Made by a program: the position numbers and the translations under genes
Assembly: GCF_000006565.2 (NCBI RefSeq)
Contig: NC_031474.1
Coordinates: 2,639,662 to 2,703,661 of the forward strand
Length of the DNA: 64,000 bases
Direction: 5' to 3'
From: Toxoplasma gondii ME49
Lineage: Eukaryota; Apicomplexa; Conoidasida; Eucoccidiorida; Sarcocystidae
Part shown: positions 23,274 through 32,454 of the stretch, piece after piece
Layout: every line of letters begins with the position of its first letter
Numbering within the stretch: the stretch's first letter is position 1
Notes under the pieces: generated by a model
The model's input: the letters and a program-made list of their open reading frames with translations, nothing else
Told to the model about the DNA's origin: nothing
Database searches by the model: none

Positions 23274-26200
23274 ATGGAGCACTTTTTCCTGCAGAAAGGC
23301 GCAGACGAGGAGGAGCGCCGCCCCAAGCTGTCGTTGCTCGGCGACCCCGAGCCGGCTGCCCCGCCGCCGGTCCCCGACGCAGACGAAGAAGATCCTCTGG
23401 AGGCGTACATGCACCAGATTTCCGAGCAAATCCAAGTTGAAGACGCGGCCATTCGCGAAAGACAAGAGCGAGAAGCCGTAGAAAAAGAAGCCGGCAGAGA
23501 CGCGTCTGGGACAGCGCAGCAAACGGACGCATCGTGTGGACGATACATCGACGACGATGACCCTCTCGCCGACAGCTACGCCTACGTGCTTGAGCAGCGG
23601 CAGAAGGTAAGGCTGGAAGCCTGAAGACGCGCCGAGTGGGCATGCTGCTCTCCGGCTGACCCAAGGGAGAAAAAAGAAGCTGAACGGGCCCTGCAGACTG
23701 AGCTTTTCAGGCTGCGACAGACTTTGCGCTTTCTGCAGAGATCTCGACCTAGCCGAGAGAGAAGGCCATTTGGCGAGCGACGACACTCAGGGGAGAAGCG
23801 GGGGCGCGCGATGAACTTCGTCCAGTCCGTGAATGCACTGCCGATGTTCACATCGGAGCTGCAGGCGCCGACTGCCTTCGCGTGCACAACCGGAGGAAGC
23901 GTGGAAGCCAGGGAAGGGAAGATGTACGAAGACGCGAAGCAAGATGAACTCGGTACATGGAGAGGAACAACGGGGAGTCAGTGGACGTGAGGCACAGGGA
24001 GTCGCACGAGACGGCGAAACGATAAAGAGGAAGGAAAAACAGTGGGCTTGAGACTAGAGGGAACTGGACGAACAAACATGATCAGCGGAGAGCCACTAGA
24101 CTCCACTGGATGCCTCATTCGCCCGCTGTGTGGATAGAAGTCTTTCCTTCGGTTTCTTCTTCTAAACAGGAGGCAGAAGCTCAAGCGGCGAATCTGTTGA
24201 AGTCGAGAAGAAAGAAAGCACGTGGAGGAGACTCAGACGACGACGGAGAAGAAGGCGATGTGCGGGGTACCAAACAGCTCGCTTCGGTCGATCACAGCAT
24301 GTAGGCGAGGGGGATGAGTCGAGTTCTCTCATGTTTCCTCCTTTCGTGGAACTTGTCTATTGATAGAAATAGCACAGCCCTCTGCTCCCTGGCGTTCCGC
24401 TCCTTTCTTGGCTCTCTGGCCTAACTGCTTCTCCTGGAGCTCCTGCCGCTCCTCGCTTCGGCTGTCACCACCCAGTGTCTGCTGCGTAAACTCTAAACCT
24501 TAATTTGTCCTCCCCCTGCGTTCTTTCTTTTATTCTTTCATTCTTTCTTTCTCCTCGGCGAGCCTCTCTTCGTCTCGCGGCGTCTGCCCCATGCCTCGTG
24601 GTGCGTTTCTGTTAGACACCACCAGGTGAGCAGGAGCCCTCTCTTTCGCCTTCCCCGTCGCTTTCTGCGATCTTTTCGTTTTTGTCGCGATGCTCGGTGT
24701 CCGCGCTGCTTCGTCAGACTCGTGTACCCGGAGTTTCAGCGCGACATTTACAAAGAAGCGGCAGACATCGGCAGCCTCTCCCACGAGGCTGTCGGAGAGC
24801 TCCGCGCGTCGTTACAGATTCGAATAACGGGTCTCAACGCCCCGCGCCCAATCGCCTCCTTTCTCCACCTCAAAGACTCTCTCTCAAAGGTAGGGAAGCG
24901 ACAAGACCGCTCATGCACCTGAGAAAAAAGGACGGAAAACAGAAAGAAATCCAAGGTGTCTGAGAGTGTCGCGTCGGGAAAGCGGTTGTGCTTAGGACGC
25001 TTAGGGTCGCCGCTACTGTCTTATTGCGTTTCTCGGCTTGGCGCCTTTGTTGAAAAGTCAACAGGAGCAGAAGAGCAAGAAAAAGGACGAAGCACGCGAA
25101 ACAGGTCATCTGTGTGTTCTTTCGAAGACTTGCATCTCTACTCTTCTCGTCTCTCTCTGTGTTTGAACTGCATCTTTCTTCTTCGCGCGGAGATGCGTGC
25201 TCTGGATCGCTGTCTTTTCTGGATCGCTCTCTTCGTTTTCCTTCCCTTCACTGAGTCGCCAGGAGTCTCGTAGTGGGCGTCGTGTACGACAGACTGCTTT
25301 TTCGTTCGAGTGTCACTTCACCATCTCCGGTTTTTCTTTCTCCATATAGGCGCTGTTTACTGGAATCAACAAGCGCGGGTTCACGCTTCCGACGCCCATC
25401 CAGTCCGCCGCCATTCCCTGTCTCATGAGAGGCAGAGATGTCCTGGGGTGTAGGCGAGAGAACTCCTTGGGGTGTCTGGCCGCATGTCATTTATCCACCA
25501 TCGCGTGTGTCTCCCTCTATTTTCATGTATCTGCATTCATGCACAAATGTGTGTATGTTTTTTTGACATGGGCAGAGAGCACAGAACACAAAAAGAGATA
25601 GAGGAGAAAGGAGAGAATGGACTGAGACAAAACGCTTGTTTTCGTTTTTTGCAGGTCGCCTTCCTGCAGAGGAAAACCTTCGAGTGCTCTGCTGCTCGAA
25701 GTCGTGTGTGTCGTTTTTTGCTCTTGCACTGTTCTTTGTTTTCCCTTTTTCGTCTCCCCGTCTCCCTTTCTTGTCTCCTGTCTTTCCGCTCGTCTCAAGC
25801 TTCCACGTGGTCTCTCGCTGCGGGGGTTCGCCGGTGTTTCTATTTCGTGCGTTTCTTGCGTTTTTTGCATCCGTTTGGTGTGTTCAGTGGCGGAGACGGG
25901 AAGCGGAAAGACAGCAGCATACTTGATTCCCCTTCTAGCTCGTCTGCAACATTTGAAGGAAGAAGAAAGATGGCCGAAGCGACATGTTGTCTACGCCGAC
26001 AATCGGCCGGACCCCGTCGGCGCCTCGCTGCGCGCTGGAGGCCCTGCAGCGATTGTTCTCTGTCCCACAAGGTCTGTCGTGTTTTCTTTGTGTATCCGTT
26101 TTTTCGTTTTTCGAGCCTAACAAAAGACAGAGCGTTCACCTTGTTTGTCGTCCCTGCTTTTCCTAGCTCTTTCCTCTCCCTTTTCTGTACCTCGGGAGTT

Positions 26201-27590
26201 TGATTTCTCTGGACCTGATGGAGGTGACGGGAAGCCCCACCACGGCGTTGCGTGGTTCCACTCTTTCGTTCACTTCGACTGCCGTCTTCTGTGTCGTTTT
26301 CCTCTTCCCCGTTTTTACTCGGAGTTCTTCTCAGTTTTTTCTTCTTCCGCGTTCTTTCGCTTCTCCTGTTGGTTCGTCGCCTCCCTCCACTGTGTCTGCC
26401 TGCGTGTTTTCGCTTTCGTCTATTTTTAGAGAACTGGCGGTGCAGATTGACGGGGAAGTGCACTCGCTCCTGGCGAAGGCGAAGGCGGGTGCGTCGCCTC
26501 TGCCTCTGAAACACGTTCTGCTGGCGGGCGGCTTCGACAAAGGCGAGCAGTTCAAGTCGCTGAAGGCAGGGGTCGATCTCGCTGTCGCAAATCCAGGTCG
26601 ACTCATTGATTTGGCGACGATGAAGGGCCTCGAGGACGCGCTGAAGTGGGTGGTCATGGTCGTCGTCGACGAAGCAGACAAGATGGTGGGGAGACGAGGG
26701 GAAACGCGGAGAAAAAAGAGGAGAAAACGCGAGGAAACAGAGAGAGCCAGTCCGACACTGAGAGACGGCGACTCGACGCGAGAGAAAAAGAAGAAGAATG
26801 GACAGAGGGAAGAAGAAACAGCAAAGAGAGGAGGGCCAAACCGGAAGAGAGAACAGAACGAGGATATGTCTACGACGAAAAAGAGAAAGATGCAGAACCA
26901 AGAGACAGGAAAAGATTGTTGTTTGCTTTCGACTTCGTCAGGTCCAAATGGGATTCGAGAATCAACTCCGGAGCATCCTGAACGCTGTCCGCCCAGATCG
27001 AATTACATGCATGTTCAGTGCAACGCTTCCCCAGCGATGTGAAGCCATCGGCAGGTGCGGAGACAATTGTTTTACGTAGCCTCGCAATTTGTCCTCGAAC
27101 ACAAATGATTTCTCATCGAAGAATCTACCTCGGCGTACTCGCCTTCCACTTTATCCCCTGAGGCGTACGGCTCTTTTGTGTTACCGGTCCATGCACAGGT
27201 ACTTATTTATATGCCTACCTCCGTATCTGTCTTCACGTCTCTTCGTTTTTGTACTCCGCATTCAAGGTCCTCTGCATAAGCACCTGTACGCGAGCTCCTC
27301 TGTCCTCAGAATTCCTCAGAATACCTGAACATGTAGGCATATATGTTCATAGATGTGTGTGTGCCCACGAAAGAAGCTTGAACGTTTCTGTCGGGGACGG
27401 AAGGTTCTTCGGAACTGCTCACATAGAGGAGGTGTAAATACACTCCGGTGGCTAGATGCGGGGCTTTGAAAAAACGGAGACACAATATTGAAGTCGAGCC
27501 GAAACAGTGGGGGGCTCGACAATATTCGGGTAGATATGTGCATTTTACGAAGATGTACTTTGCCCTTCATCTATATACATACGCATGCAC

Positions 27591-27675
<85 letters not shown>

Positions 27676-30600
27676 CATATATCCTTATAGAGAGCCTGGG
27701 TTTCTCGAAATGCTCGCTGCTCAGTCCCTTCGCCCTCGTTGTTGTTTCCGCTTCTTCTCACAGGCGCGCGGAGCCGATACGCTTGCCTGCATAAGTGCAT
27801 GCACCATGCTGATATCGCTGGTGTGTGCTGTCCTGTGTCTGTACACCCCAGATCCTGCTTTAGATTCAGTGACTTGATCATTCTTGTCTGCGTCTTTGGA
27901 TGTTTCGGACTGTTCGTTTCCTTCCAGACAGTTTCTGCGGAGCCCTGTGAAGATCACAATCGGCGAAGGCGGTCAGGTGGGCGGTTCGTATGCGTTGTGC
28001 GTTCTTCTCTGTGCGTTTCTTCATCGACGGATCTCGTCTTTCATGGTTGTGTTTCCAACGTCTTTTCTTTCCCTCGGTTCCCACCTGTCTCCAGTGTCCT
28101 CGGCGTCGTCGCTTCTCTCTCTTTTCCTTGCCAATTTCAACGCCATTTGCCTCTTCTCACCGTGCCCCTGCGCTGTGCAGAAGACACTCCGTTTTCTCTT
28201 AAGCGCATGCACGCACATCCACCTTCCTCTTCTTCCGTATCGCGCCCCCACTGTTTCGGCTCGTCTTCAATGTTGTGTCTCCGTTTTTTCAAAGCCTCGC
28301 ATCTAGCCACCGGAGTGTATCTACACCTCCTGTATGTGAGCAGTTCCGAAGAACCTTCTTTCCCCGACAGAAACGTTCAAGCTTCTTTCGTGTTGAAGAG
28401 GACCTCCGTTTCTTTACCTTTCTCCCGGATAGCATGTCCTGTGCTTCGTCTAAGGACCACCGCAGGAGTCCTGCTCTGACAGCTTGTACCAGTTCAGATT
28501 CCGTTTCTTGCCCCAACCAGGCGACTCTACGTCGGTTCTGTTTCGGGGCATTCCTCGTCCTGCTCGTTTGCTCTGCGCTTCCCAGGCAGCGAAATCCGTG
28601 GAGCAGAACGTAGCCGTTGTACAGAGCGAGGAAGCCAAGTTTCAGTGGCTGGCGTCGCATCTGTTGCCTCTCCTCGTGTCTGGGAGTGACCCGGACTTGA
28701 AAGAAGCTTCGGACAAAGACATCGCTGACAAAGGCCGAGTTGCTGTGGTTTTCTGCAACACACAACAGCGATGTGAGGACTTGAGCGTCCTTCTCGAGGA
28801 AGAGCTCTCGCTGCAGATGGAAGAGCTCGCTCGCGCCTCTCTCTCGAAGGCGTCGAACGGAGAAAGCGGACAAGGAAGAGCAGAAAAGGAGGAGAACTGG
28901 CGAGTGACGAGGAAGGTGACGGCGACGCAGGACCTAACGCAGAAAGAAAGTACAAAGGCTGCAGCTGCGCGCTTGCTCCAGATGGAGTCCGAAGCGGAGA
29001 AGCACGAGAAAGAGGGGAACAAACGGTTGAGGAAAAGCGCAGAGCAATCTTTCAAATGTGAGTTCTGCTTCACGAAACGGGGGTGGGGCCGGAGAGAAGG
29101 GGAAAACAAGGCTCGCGAGAGAAAGAAGGAAAGAGGAGAAAAGAACGAGGAGAGAAGAACGAGGAGAGAAGAAGCGAGGGTTGTCAGATGCCGGAACGCG
29201 GAACGTCAGTCGAACGTAGACATACAGGAGACATACAGGCACACAAAGAGACGAAAGGGGGTGTCCATGGCGCTGGGAGTTGTCAGTTCTGGGAAGGACC
29301 CTTTCGAGTTTCTCTGCAGTACTTTGCCCATCAAATGTTGGGAAAGGCAGAAAAACCGCTGTTCAAAGGGGTTCAGTTAAAACTGCGTGCGACTCTCGGG
29401 TCACTCCATCTCGAAGACTGTGCTCTTTGGAGTGAGTATGAACCAGTCGCGCTGTGACTCTGTCAGCGAGCGGGGAGCAAACAAATAAAACTTGTGGCGA
29501 CTTTGAGCGTGACCTGTCGAATGGACCAGTGCTGCGCAACGCGATTCTAAAAGCTTCACCTACTTCCATCTACACCTGTACGGCAACTGAACGCTTTTGC
29601 TTTCTGTCTGTTGTCTCTCGATCACGCTTCGCCCCTACTTCAAAGACGCTCTGATTTTCTGCGTGTTCGCTGTCTCCCCGCGTTTTTCCTGTCTCTGCAG
29701 ATGTCACTGTCGTCCACGGAGGCCTGAATCAGACAGAAAGACTGGCTGCTGTGCGCAGGCTTCACCGCCACATCTTGAAGGCACCTCCGCCTCCAGTGTC
29801 TCCTCGCCCTCTCCTAGATGTCTCCTCCTTGATCTCGCCCCTCGTGCTCGTCGCGACAGACGTCGCGGCGAGAGGCCTCGACTTCCCCGCTGGGCTCTCC
29901 CTCGTCGTCAGCTACGATGCCCCTCAAGAGGGCGAGGTGTACGTACACCGCATCGGCCGCGCCGGGAGAGCCGGGCGCCGCGGGCAATCTTTTGCCCTTC
30001 TTACCCGAACTGAGAAGCGCGCCGCTGCTCTTCTCGTCGAGGCGATGGAGGTACGGAGGCCACCGTGAGGACTGCAGAAAAGAAGTGAAATGGAGAGAGA
30101 AGACCGACTCCACGTTCGACTCACAGATTGCCTCTCTGCCGCCTTCTCTCGCGCCCTCTGCGGGAGGTAGAAAGCTTTTTCGTATTCTCGACATCTCGTT
30201 CATCTTTTCTCTGTCTGATCTGCATGCATGCCTCTCTCGCTCGTCTCCCTCTCATGTGTCTTTGTTTCTTGCTCGTTGTTCTATCTCGTACGTGCTCTTC
30301 GTGTCTTCGCTTCCGCTCGGGCTGTCCTCTCCCTAGTCGCTGTCTGACATTTGTCTCTCTCTCCAGTCGTCCTTTTTCTTTTTGCTGTGTGCTTGGTCTG
30401 TCGTTTTGTTAGTTTATCCCTTGCCTGTGTGGTCTCTTGGAATTTCGAATGTTGCCGCCTCTCCATTTTTTCTTCCAGGCTGTTGAACAACAAGCACCGC
30501 GGCAGCTGCTCGACATGGCGATGGGATACGGTGAGAGCAACCCTATGTCGGGGGGGAGGGTGTTGGGAAGTCACGGTTCTCAGCGTTTCGTCTGTCGCGA

Positions 30601-32454
30601 AGTCTTCTTTTCGAGTCGTTCTTCCTTCGGTTCTTCCTCTCTTTCTGCCAGGCTCTTCTCTGGACTTTTTTCTTGGCGTGGAACGACCTCCGCTTCTCTC
30701 TTGTCTCCGTGCTCCGTTGTCTTTCTCTTCCATTTATTTTTACCTGTGCTTTCTCCCGTGTCTTTCGAGGCCGGCACACGCATGCATCGGAATTCTCCCT
30801 TTCTATCTTTACTTTTTCCTTGGTTGTTTCAGCTCCTTTTCGAAACGCACGACTTGCAGGCATGAAGATGGAAGAGCCTGCACGAGGGAAGAGGAAAAAA
30901 GGTGATGTGCGCCCCTCGGCCAACGCCTCCTTCGGTCTTGGGTAGGTGTTATTGAAAAGACAAGTTTGCCGCATGTGGGCGGGTTCTTCCCTTTTATTGT
31001 GTCCGACTTATCGTCCTTCGCGCCTCCGCCTCGTCTGTTGCACGTCTCACAAGATCCGGAGTTCTCTTCCTCAACGTATCTCTCACTTGTTCTCTCGCTT
31101 CTGCGTCTCCAGAGACGTTTTCTGAGCCTCTCGGCTCTTTTTCTGCTTCACATCCTGCCTTTTCGGTGTCTCCCGCTCTTCCTTCTGCAACCGGTTCCGC
31201 TCTCCAGACCCTCTGTCGCCTTTGCCTGGGCTTCGGGGGCACTGGTGCTCCACATAAAGCCAGCACCGCAAAGGCGATCGACTTTTTCATGTCTGTGACT
31301 TCCGCGCGTCTCCGCGACGTGATGGTCTGTCTGTGTTCAGCTACACAGGTTCTCACTCAGAGAACAGCCCCTCAGACAGGTCGAAGAATACGTACACCGC
31401 AGCAACCTCTGCAGCAGCAGCAGCTTCTGCAGCAGCAGCGGCGATTTGCATGCAGAAGGAGAAGAATGCACAGGGAGGAGACTCGAGCTCTCTCACTTCC
31501 GGGACTTCGTCGAGTGCACACGCACCCGCGAAACGCGGGCGCTGGGACTCTGCCGAAGCTTCGAGAAAAAGCGAAACTTCAGGCGATCTGGTGACCCTCG
31601 AGCAGCTGTGTCCGGCGTCTTCGTCTCTCTCCTCCTTTTCGCTCTCTCAGCATGCAGATACAGGAAAAGCGGAGAACGGAGACACGAGGACGCTACCCCG
31701 AGTTGTGGGGATCGACGACGATCTGTCATCCGACGAGGAGGCCGTCCCCACTCCTGTGGCGCCGCCTGCGCGACCGGGTCTCCTGAATTTGAACAAGCGA
31801 GAAGAACGCAGGAGACAGTGGGCTGAGGAGGCTGAAGCTCGCCGCGAGCAGCAGCGCGAGAAGGAGCGAGAAGAACGCAGAAGCCGAGCGTCGCCGCCTC
31901 GGAAAGCCTTCACCGAACGGCGTCCTTTCTCCTCGGCAAAGAGTGAAGAACGCCGAACGGAGAATACGCAAGGAGGGCCAGGTTCGGGGGGGTCCACTGT
32001 CTCGTCAAACCGCCCGGTCGCTGTGCCGGAAACGAGCGGCTGTCTGGCTGCATCTGTGTGTGCAAATTCACCGTCGGCAGCGCCAGCAATGGTTGCGCAT
32101 GCAGGCGTGGAAGGCGGGGCAGACGCGGCTTCTCTCCACTCTGTCTACGCTGTGTCTCAAGCTCGGAACATCCCTGGGGAGCGACTCGCGGCGGTGGCTG
32201 GCCAGCACGAGTCTCAGTCGCGGCAGCCGACAACACTGTGGGAGGCAGGCCTCACAGCAGGAGAGGTGCAGAGAGGGCAAGGCCTTAGGGCGGGGGACTC
32301 TTTCTCATCGATGGGGTCTGCAGTTGCAGGATTGCCTTCACAGACTCCTTGCGGGACAGGAGGCGTCTCAGACCCCACAGCTGCGGCGGCGCTCGCAGCA
32401 GCCATCGCGCATGCACAGCAGGCAGCCGCGAAACGAGGTGTGGGCCGCATGTGA
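23274..32454 (+). CDS. DDX42: DEAD-box RNA helicase, DDX42-like
   Basis: Thirteen exons, every junction phase-consistent, 1135 aa: 23274-23606, 24170-24300, 24718-24889, 25350-25449, 25888-26071, 26430-26685, 26942-27054, 27928-27976, 28586-29057, 29701-30050, 30479-30530, 30860-30941, 31341-32454. The ATG lies in GCGAAAATGG. DDX42 hallmarks run in order: acidic DDPLA-type N-terminus, [23 protein letters not shown] motif GFTLPTPIQ, motif [51 protein letters not shown], then LLDMAM and GLGY as in metazoan DDX42. The family is an ATP-dependent RNA helicase tied to the U2 snRNP/SF3b complex in the nucleus. Oddities are an insertion of about 80 residues between motifs IV and V, an AG|GTCTGT donor inside PTRELA, and a 49-nt exon flanked by inverted repeats. 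The C-terminal 370 residues are Ala/Ser/Arg/Glu-rich and disordered. Confidence 0.92.
27367..27513 (+). repeat. Inverted repeat, copy 1
   Basis: About 147 bp in the seventh DDX42 intron. Its reverse complement recurs at 28245-28391 with roughly seven mismatches, about 95 percent identity by eye. The shared core includes GAAAGAAGCTTGAACGTTTC and CACTCCGGTGGCTAGATGCG. Confidence 0.93.
27484..27526. repeat. Short hairpin at repeat edge
   Basis: AATATT-GAA-GTCGAGCC on the left pairs with GGCTCGAC-AATATT on the right, leaving a GAA bulge and a loop of about 12 nt. It sits on the right edge of inverted-repeat copy 1, and the right arm is absent from copy 2. Confidence 0.8.
27591..27682. repeat. 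(TA)n microsatellite
   Basis: About 90 bp of AT repeat with a few GTATGTGTAC interruptions, in the seventh intron of the DDX42-like gene, between the repeat copy at 27367 and the 49-nt exon. Confidence 0.95.
28245..28391 (-). repeat. Inverted repeat, copy 2
   Basis: Reverse-complement partner of 27367-27513, in the eighth DDX42 intron. Together the two copies bracket the exon 27928-27976, so the pre-mRNA could fold into a stem of more than 140 bp across it. Confidence 0.93.

Follow-up and report, generated by a model that had tools for sequence, protein, structure and literature searches.

In Toxoplasma gondii ME49, a 49-nt exon of a gene encoding a DDX42-like DEAD-box helicase lies between two nearly identical sequences that occupy the adjacent introns in opposite orientation. 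This arrangement raises the question of whether the two copies pair in the transcript and thereby control the fate of the exon, or whether they record an event in the history of the locus that splicing largely tolerates. The gene resides in a 64,000-nt stretch of contig 8 (hereafter the window, to which all coordinates refer unless another contig is named), and comparisons were made against the T. gondii genome of 65,284,747 bases in 1959 contigs.

An inverted repeat pair in a helicase gene

Arm 1 (27366..27513, + strand) lies within intron 7, and arm 2 (28245..28392, - strand) within intron 8. The two 148-bp arms are identical in opposite orientation at 141 of 148 positions (95.3% complementarity), with seven mismatches and no indels; they are separated by 731 nt, and the boundaries of both are abrupt. 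A chance match is excluded by the expectation value of the second copy in a BLAST search of the organism's own genome (E = 3.5e-61) and by the exact complementarity of introns 7 and 8, which runs unbroken for up to 32 nt, as compared with at most 11 nt in 100 dinucleotide shuffles. The inverted pair around the helicase exon is real, and with an almost identical, inverted copy in each flanking intron it has the architecture familiar from Alu-like pairs. The initial annotation, which described inverted copies of about 147 bp with roughly 95% identity in the two introns around exon 27928-27976, was accurate in both respects, save that each arm is one base longer.

The own-genome BLAST search returned no third copy of the arm in the T. 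gondii genome. Wider queries that included the arm flanks recovered the same two places and no others, as did a search of the same genome with a 33-base pattern that allowed up to three mismatches. Copy counts from the genome search are lower bounds, very common words having been skipped. From the follow-up that the initial annotation proposed, the genome-wide search of the repeat unit was run, and it finds two copies, both in this gene. A survey of self-matches covered 264 kb of the 65.28 Mb total, comprising the window and 20 segments of 10 kb each, two of them adjoining the window and 18 taken from contigs 1 to 9, and retained matches of at least 40 nt with E <= 1e-3 and trimer entropy >3.5 with DUST on, rows removed by this filter being left uncounted. 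The arm pair has the top score among the seven self-matches listed after filtering. Of the other six, five are direct repeats; the sixth is an inverted pair rich in AT, 76% identical, whose two ends lie 25 kb apart, one of them within the intron 7 AT tract. Outside the window, the 200-kb sample showed no comparable inverted pair, so that, as far as this small sample goes, such pairs are not commonplace.

The host gene (23274..32454, + strand) has 13 exons and encodes 1144 amino acids in our own gene model, which was built by eye from AG/GT sites, reading frames, and relatives. Among solved structures, the best match to a 599-aa part of the protein is DDX42 (8hk1, E 1e-71), in agreement with the DDX42-like identity proposed at the outset. 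DDX42 structures match at E 1e-71 to 1.2e-69 and DDX46 follows at E 4.1e-69, and thus DDX42 is preferred over DDX46/PRP5 by a small margin. The likeness to DDX42 helicases therefore consists in this best structural match and is qualified by its thin margin over DDX46, and a splicing role for the protein is only putative. Protein relatives were taken from three comparisons (the best 120 of 6711, the best 120 of 229, and 3 of 3, with about 8000 candidates scored in each), and they include two long proteins, P0121 from Neospora caninum (1164 aa, with 98% coverage at 66% identity) and P0122 from Besnoitia besnoiti (1333 aa, with 88% coverage at 63% identity). One T. gondii entry is found among the matches listed, the TgCatPRC2 protein P0001, which covers 52% of the query and is 100% identical to it there; a single-residue difference near the start suggests a different strain.

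Predicted arm pairing and the 49-nt exon

Exon 8 (27928..27976, + strand) specifies the segment QFLRSPVKITIGEGGQ, which belongs to the helicase core. It is bounded by AG and GT, the reading frame continues when it is included, and it follows the SAT motif, which we take to be motif III. Skipping it shifts the frame, and the tenth codon past the junction is then a stop; the position, 49-nt length, and frame shift after motif III that had been described previously are all upheld. None of the 12 introns is longer than the upstream intron 7 (27055..27927, + strand; 873 nt), which contains arm 1 together with an (AT)n tract, a microsatellite of 46 copies with 88% matches that is situated between arm 1 and the exon (27591..27682). 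Intron 8 (27977..28585, + strand) measures 609 nt, or 461 nt without arm 2, and the other ten introns of the gene range from 256 to 643 nt.

Pairing of the arms, which the initial annotation had implied, is supported by prediction. The duplex of isolated arms has a predicted energy of -286.7 kcal/mol, as against -35.8 and -25.8 kcal/mol for the single arms. In a predicted fold of 1401 nt, the arms pair over nearly their full length in both the MFE and the centroid structures as judged by eye, giving a stable predicted pairing across the exon, in a calculation that has no shuffle control and ignores co-transcriptional order, proteins, and helicases. The intron 7 donor lies 311 nt from arm 1, which is 414 nt from the exon; a further 268 nt separate the exon from arm 2, and 193 nt separate arm 2 from the next acceptor. 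Because pairing of the arms would shorten the path from the intron 7 donor to the intron 8 acceptor from 1531 nt to 504 nt (stem excluded), the geometry suits skipping of the exon.

The differences between the arms show no sign of constraint for pairing. Three of the seven leave a G-U pair and four break the pair; about two G-U pairs would be expected without constraint, given that only four transitions can yield G-U and half of them should do so. The exon itself is retained among relatives. Six were compared, and all four that span exon 8 contain its segment, namely those from Neospora (P0121), Besnoitia (P0122), and Cyclospora (P0002), and an entry named DDX42 (P0010); in none of the six are exons 7 and 9 joined directly without exon 8. 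P0001 ends before the exon, and a partial Cystoisospora suis entry (P0017) begins just after it. The end of P0001 matches read-through of the intron 7 donor (27055-27079; CGDNCFT, then a stop), which may represent retention of intron 7, an assembly gap, or a gene finder that missed a tiny exon. Intron retention is described as common in T. gondii (PMC8561664, in excerpt). The break at the same exon in Cystoisospora leans toward a gene-finder miss, although that entry is partial and might have been truncated on other grounds. Gene finders may thus have overlooked the 49-nt exon in at least two coccidians.

It was proposed in the initial annotation that the repeats could form a switch by which a splicing helicase regulates itself. 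Pairing of the arms would loop out exon 8 and bring the outer donor and acceptor nearer to one another, producing a frame-shifted, unproductive mRNA in proportions that are perhaps tuned by the helicase. The strength of the predicted duplex and its appearance in the regional fold are consistent with such a switch, as is the early stop that skipping yields, and the 504-nt gap that would remain after pairing resembles the gene's ten other introns in length. Precedent comes from human cells, where inverted Alus in one intron made the downstream exon alternative rather than constitutive (PMC2533698, in excerpt), and thus RNA pairing can matter for splicing. The splice sites of the helicase gene point the other way. 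The exon 8 acceptor scores 10.9 bits, the highest of the gene's 12, whereas the acceptor after intron 8, which skipping would need, scores 2.0 bits, the second lowest; the donor of exon 8 (8.7 bits) ranks third of 12 and that of intron 7 (7.5 bits) fourth, all of these being rough scores obtained by leave-one-out on this gene's 12 introns. Of the genes that undergo alternative splicing in T. gondii and P. falciparum, fewer than 3% show exon skipping, although where it does happen it accounts for about two-thirds of those genes' isoforms, and intron retention reaches 60-68% among alternatively spliced genes in direct RNA sequencing of the two parasites (PMC8561664, for the portion of that study available). 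In addition, a single Alu caused nearly total skipping that was relieved by its inverted partner (PMC2533698, same excerpt), and so pairing is not always pro-skipping and the direction of its effect is not fixed.

The human Alu pairs resemble the T. gondii pair in being near-complementary intronic copies, less than 2000 nt apart, that are expected to pair. They differ in that Alus are dispersed elements, whereas only two copies of the arm are found in T. gondii; in that both Alus lie in one intron upstream of the affected exon, whereas the helicase exon has one arm on each side; and in that an effect on splicing has been demonstrated for the Alu pairs, whereas the T. gondii pair is known from its DNA sequence alone (PMC2533698, as far as excerpted). 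On splicing of this DDX42-like gene, the matches listed from open-licence literature contain nothing, an absence that is weak evidence. Taken with the strong acceptor, the presence of the exon in all four informative relatives, and the rarity of skipping, the lack of any sign of selection for arm pairing leaves the autoregulatory switch unsupported; the idea is weakened, and we consider it unlikely. A stronger version, in which a recent, lineage-limited inverted duplication places the exon of a splicing helicase under the control of a hairpin, with unwinding, possibly by the helicase itself, setting the share of productive mRNA, is very unlikely. If true, an apicomplexan would possess a splice switch in which an inverted repeat mediates autoregulation. 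Should the hairpin affect exon inclusion, nature would have supplied a clean test of looping-driven splicing in a splicing-related apicomplexan gene.

Small-RNA, circular-RNA, and repeat-based alternatives

The hairpin could instead act as a Dicer substrate, if an unspliced transcript carrying both introns were processed into small RNAs or if its cleavage lowered the level of helicase mRNA. The T. gondii genome encodes a Piwi domain and has, on contig 11, two RNase III segments with about 2.8 kb between them, and since small RNAs of this parasite map to introns and imperfect fold-backs (PMC2877743, in excerpt), processing of such a hairpin is conceivable. The arms occupy different introns, however, and splicing of either one would part them, which makes this a doubtful proposition. 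Back-splicing of the 49-nt exon into a circle is a further option that had been raised previously, and inverted Alu repeats in flanking introns can indeed promote circle formation (PMC13029200, a review, in part). In S. pombe, by contrast, skipped exons that yield no circle are significantly shorter, exon length being a strong predictor (PMC4479058, in excerpt), and an exon of 49 nt is at odds with this effect. The portion of the review's table that was available has parasite-derived circles for P. falciparum and a T. gondii cell-culture row that is host-derived (PMC13029200), and circles made by T. gondii itself are absent from the matches listed in open-licence literature, which again is weak evidence. 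A circle composed of this single exon is thus unlikely by analogy with yeast, and promotion of such a circle by the arms is extremely improbable; the suggestion is weakened.

Two near-identical copies with sharp ends might also be expected of a mobile or dispersed repeat, of the MITE or REP/SDR type, that had inserted twice. Such an element would have to be reconciled with the two copies found in the T. gondii genome, both of which lie in one gene, and with flanks in which no target-site duplication is visible by eye. The REP/SDR repeats known from T. gondii, like its loci of fold-back small RNAs, share with the arms the capacity of inverted repeats to form dsRNA in the same parasite, but SDRs are 91 bp long, dispersed in the genome, linked to mitochondrial-like sequence, and placed at the flanks of mitochondrial-like genes, whereas the arm unit was found at one locus only (PMC2877743, as excerpted). 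Double insertion is accordingly highly improbable, and a mitochondrial REP element in particular was rejected on the finding of no further copies in the genome. Misassembly of the second copy near the AT tract would find some encouragement in the position of that tract between the arms and in the gene model of another strain, which ends in intron 7; the copies nonetheless differ at seven sites and have different flanks, so that an assembly artefact is scarcely credible.

Two kinds of RNA gene were tried and rejected as identities for the arms. A structured RNA gene was dismissed since the arms fold no better than their shuffles (z between -0.30 and 0.50 for the four strands), and an H/ACA-like RNA was dismissed by eye alone, with no support in the arm folds. 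A search of Rfam over 24000-32000 (E <= 5) returned 21 rows, none of them an RNA family above its cut-off. Nineteen of these sub-threshold rows overlap the AT-rich segment at approximately 27535-27718 and were taken as low complexity, including RUF3 (E 1.2, 30.3 bits vs a cut-off of 80), whose match extends over the AT tract and the end of arm 1; sR49 (29753) and mir-791 (31206) make up the rest. Elsewhere in the genome, outside the window, an A_deamin match (PF02137, 41.3 bits) on contig 7 (3437500-3437853) might represent an adenosine deaminase acting on tRNA or RNA, and no editing is claimed.

A probable origin by local inverted duplication

Given two copies, flanks in which the eye finds no target-site duplication, and Rfam scores that all fall below their cut-offs, the pair is most simply explained as a local inverted duplication, and this account is probably correct: the event would date from about the time of the Toxoplasma-Hammondia split, and the resulting hairpin would be mostly tolerated by splicing. 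A 148-bp stretch of intron 7 would have been copied once, in reverse, into intron 8 (or vice versa) through a template switch during DNA repair or replication rather than by a transposon. Template switching at short range makes inverted copies (PMC7954356, in excerpt), and the arms correspond to such products in being a local, gap-free reverse-complement copy with sharp ends and without transposon hallmarks, except that the event at this locus is deduced solely from the T. gondii sequence. A target-site duplication might, conceivably, have decayed beyond recognition by eye. Although the hairpin can presumably form in the nascent transcript, exon 8, with its strong acceptor, would still be included for the most part, and the duplication would therefore be neutral or would at most cause slightly more unproductive splicing.

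The proposed age follows from the divergence of the arms, which is 7/148 (4.7%). Between T. gondii and H. hammondi, REP-529 repeats share 93.7-97.5% identity and so differ by 2.5-6.3% (PMC7830817, in excerpt), and the value for the arms falls within this range of difference, which, barring gene conversion and using a single repeat for calibration, would place the duplication roughly at the split of the two genera. By the same one-repeat dating, the duplication is probably missing in Neospora. Several observations sit less comfortably with a duplication of little consequence. No such pair occurs in the 200-kb sample, small as it is; placement around a frame-shifting exon of 49 nt invites a functional reading; and the TgCatPRC2 model P0001 stops inside intron 7, which could reflect real intron retention. 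The duplication is well defined and roughly datable, and any effect that it has on splicing should be readable in existing RNA-seq.

A possible trace of the copying event is seen at the 3′ boundary of arm 1, which is spanned by an imperfect palindrome (27483..27528), CAATATT-GAA-GTCGAGCC ... GGCTCGAC-AATATT. The 3′ edge of the arm coincides with the start of the palindrome's 3′ strand, which continues into the flank and is absent from arm 2, and the predicted fold is correspondingly -15.7 kcal/mol at arm 1 vs -6.1 kcal/mol at arm 2. That arm 1 ends at the edge of a palindrome that arm 2 lacks would make arm 1 the source of the copy, a weak claim given that the folding energy is ordinary (among 864 windows of 55 nt from the gene region, 18.6% fold at least as stably). 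At two of the differences between the arms, 27486 and 27494, it is arm 1 and not arm 2 that matches the flank of arm 1. Two sites are too few to carry much weight beside so ordinary a palindrome, but they fit a fold-back template switch and provide a hint of how the second arm may have been made.
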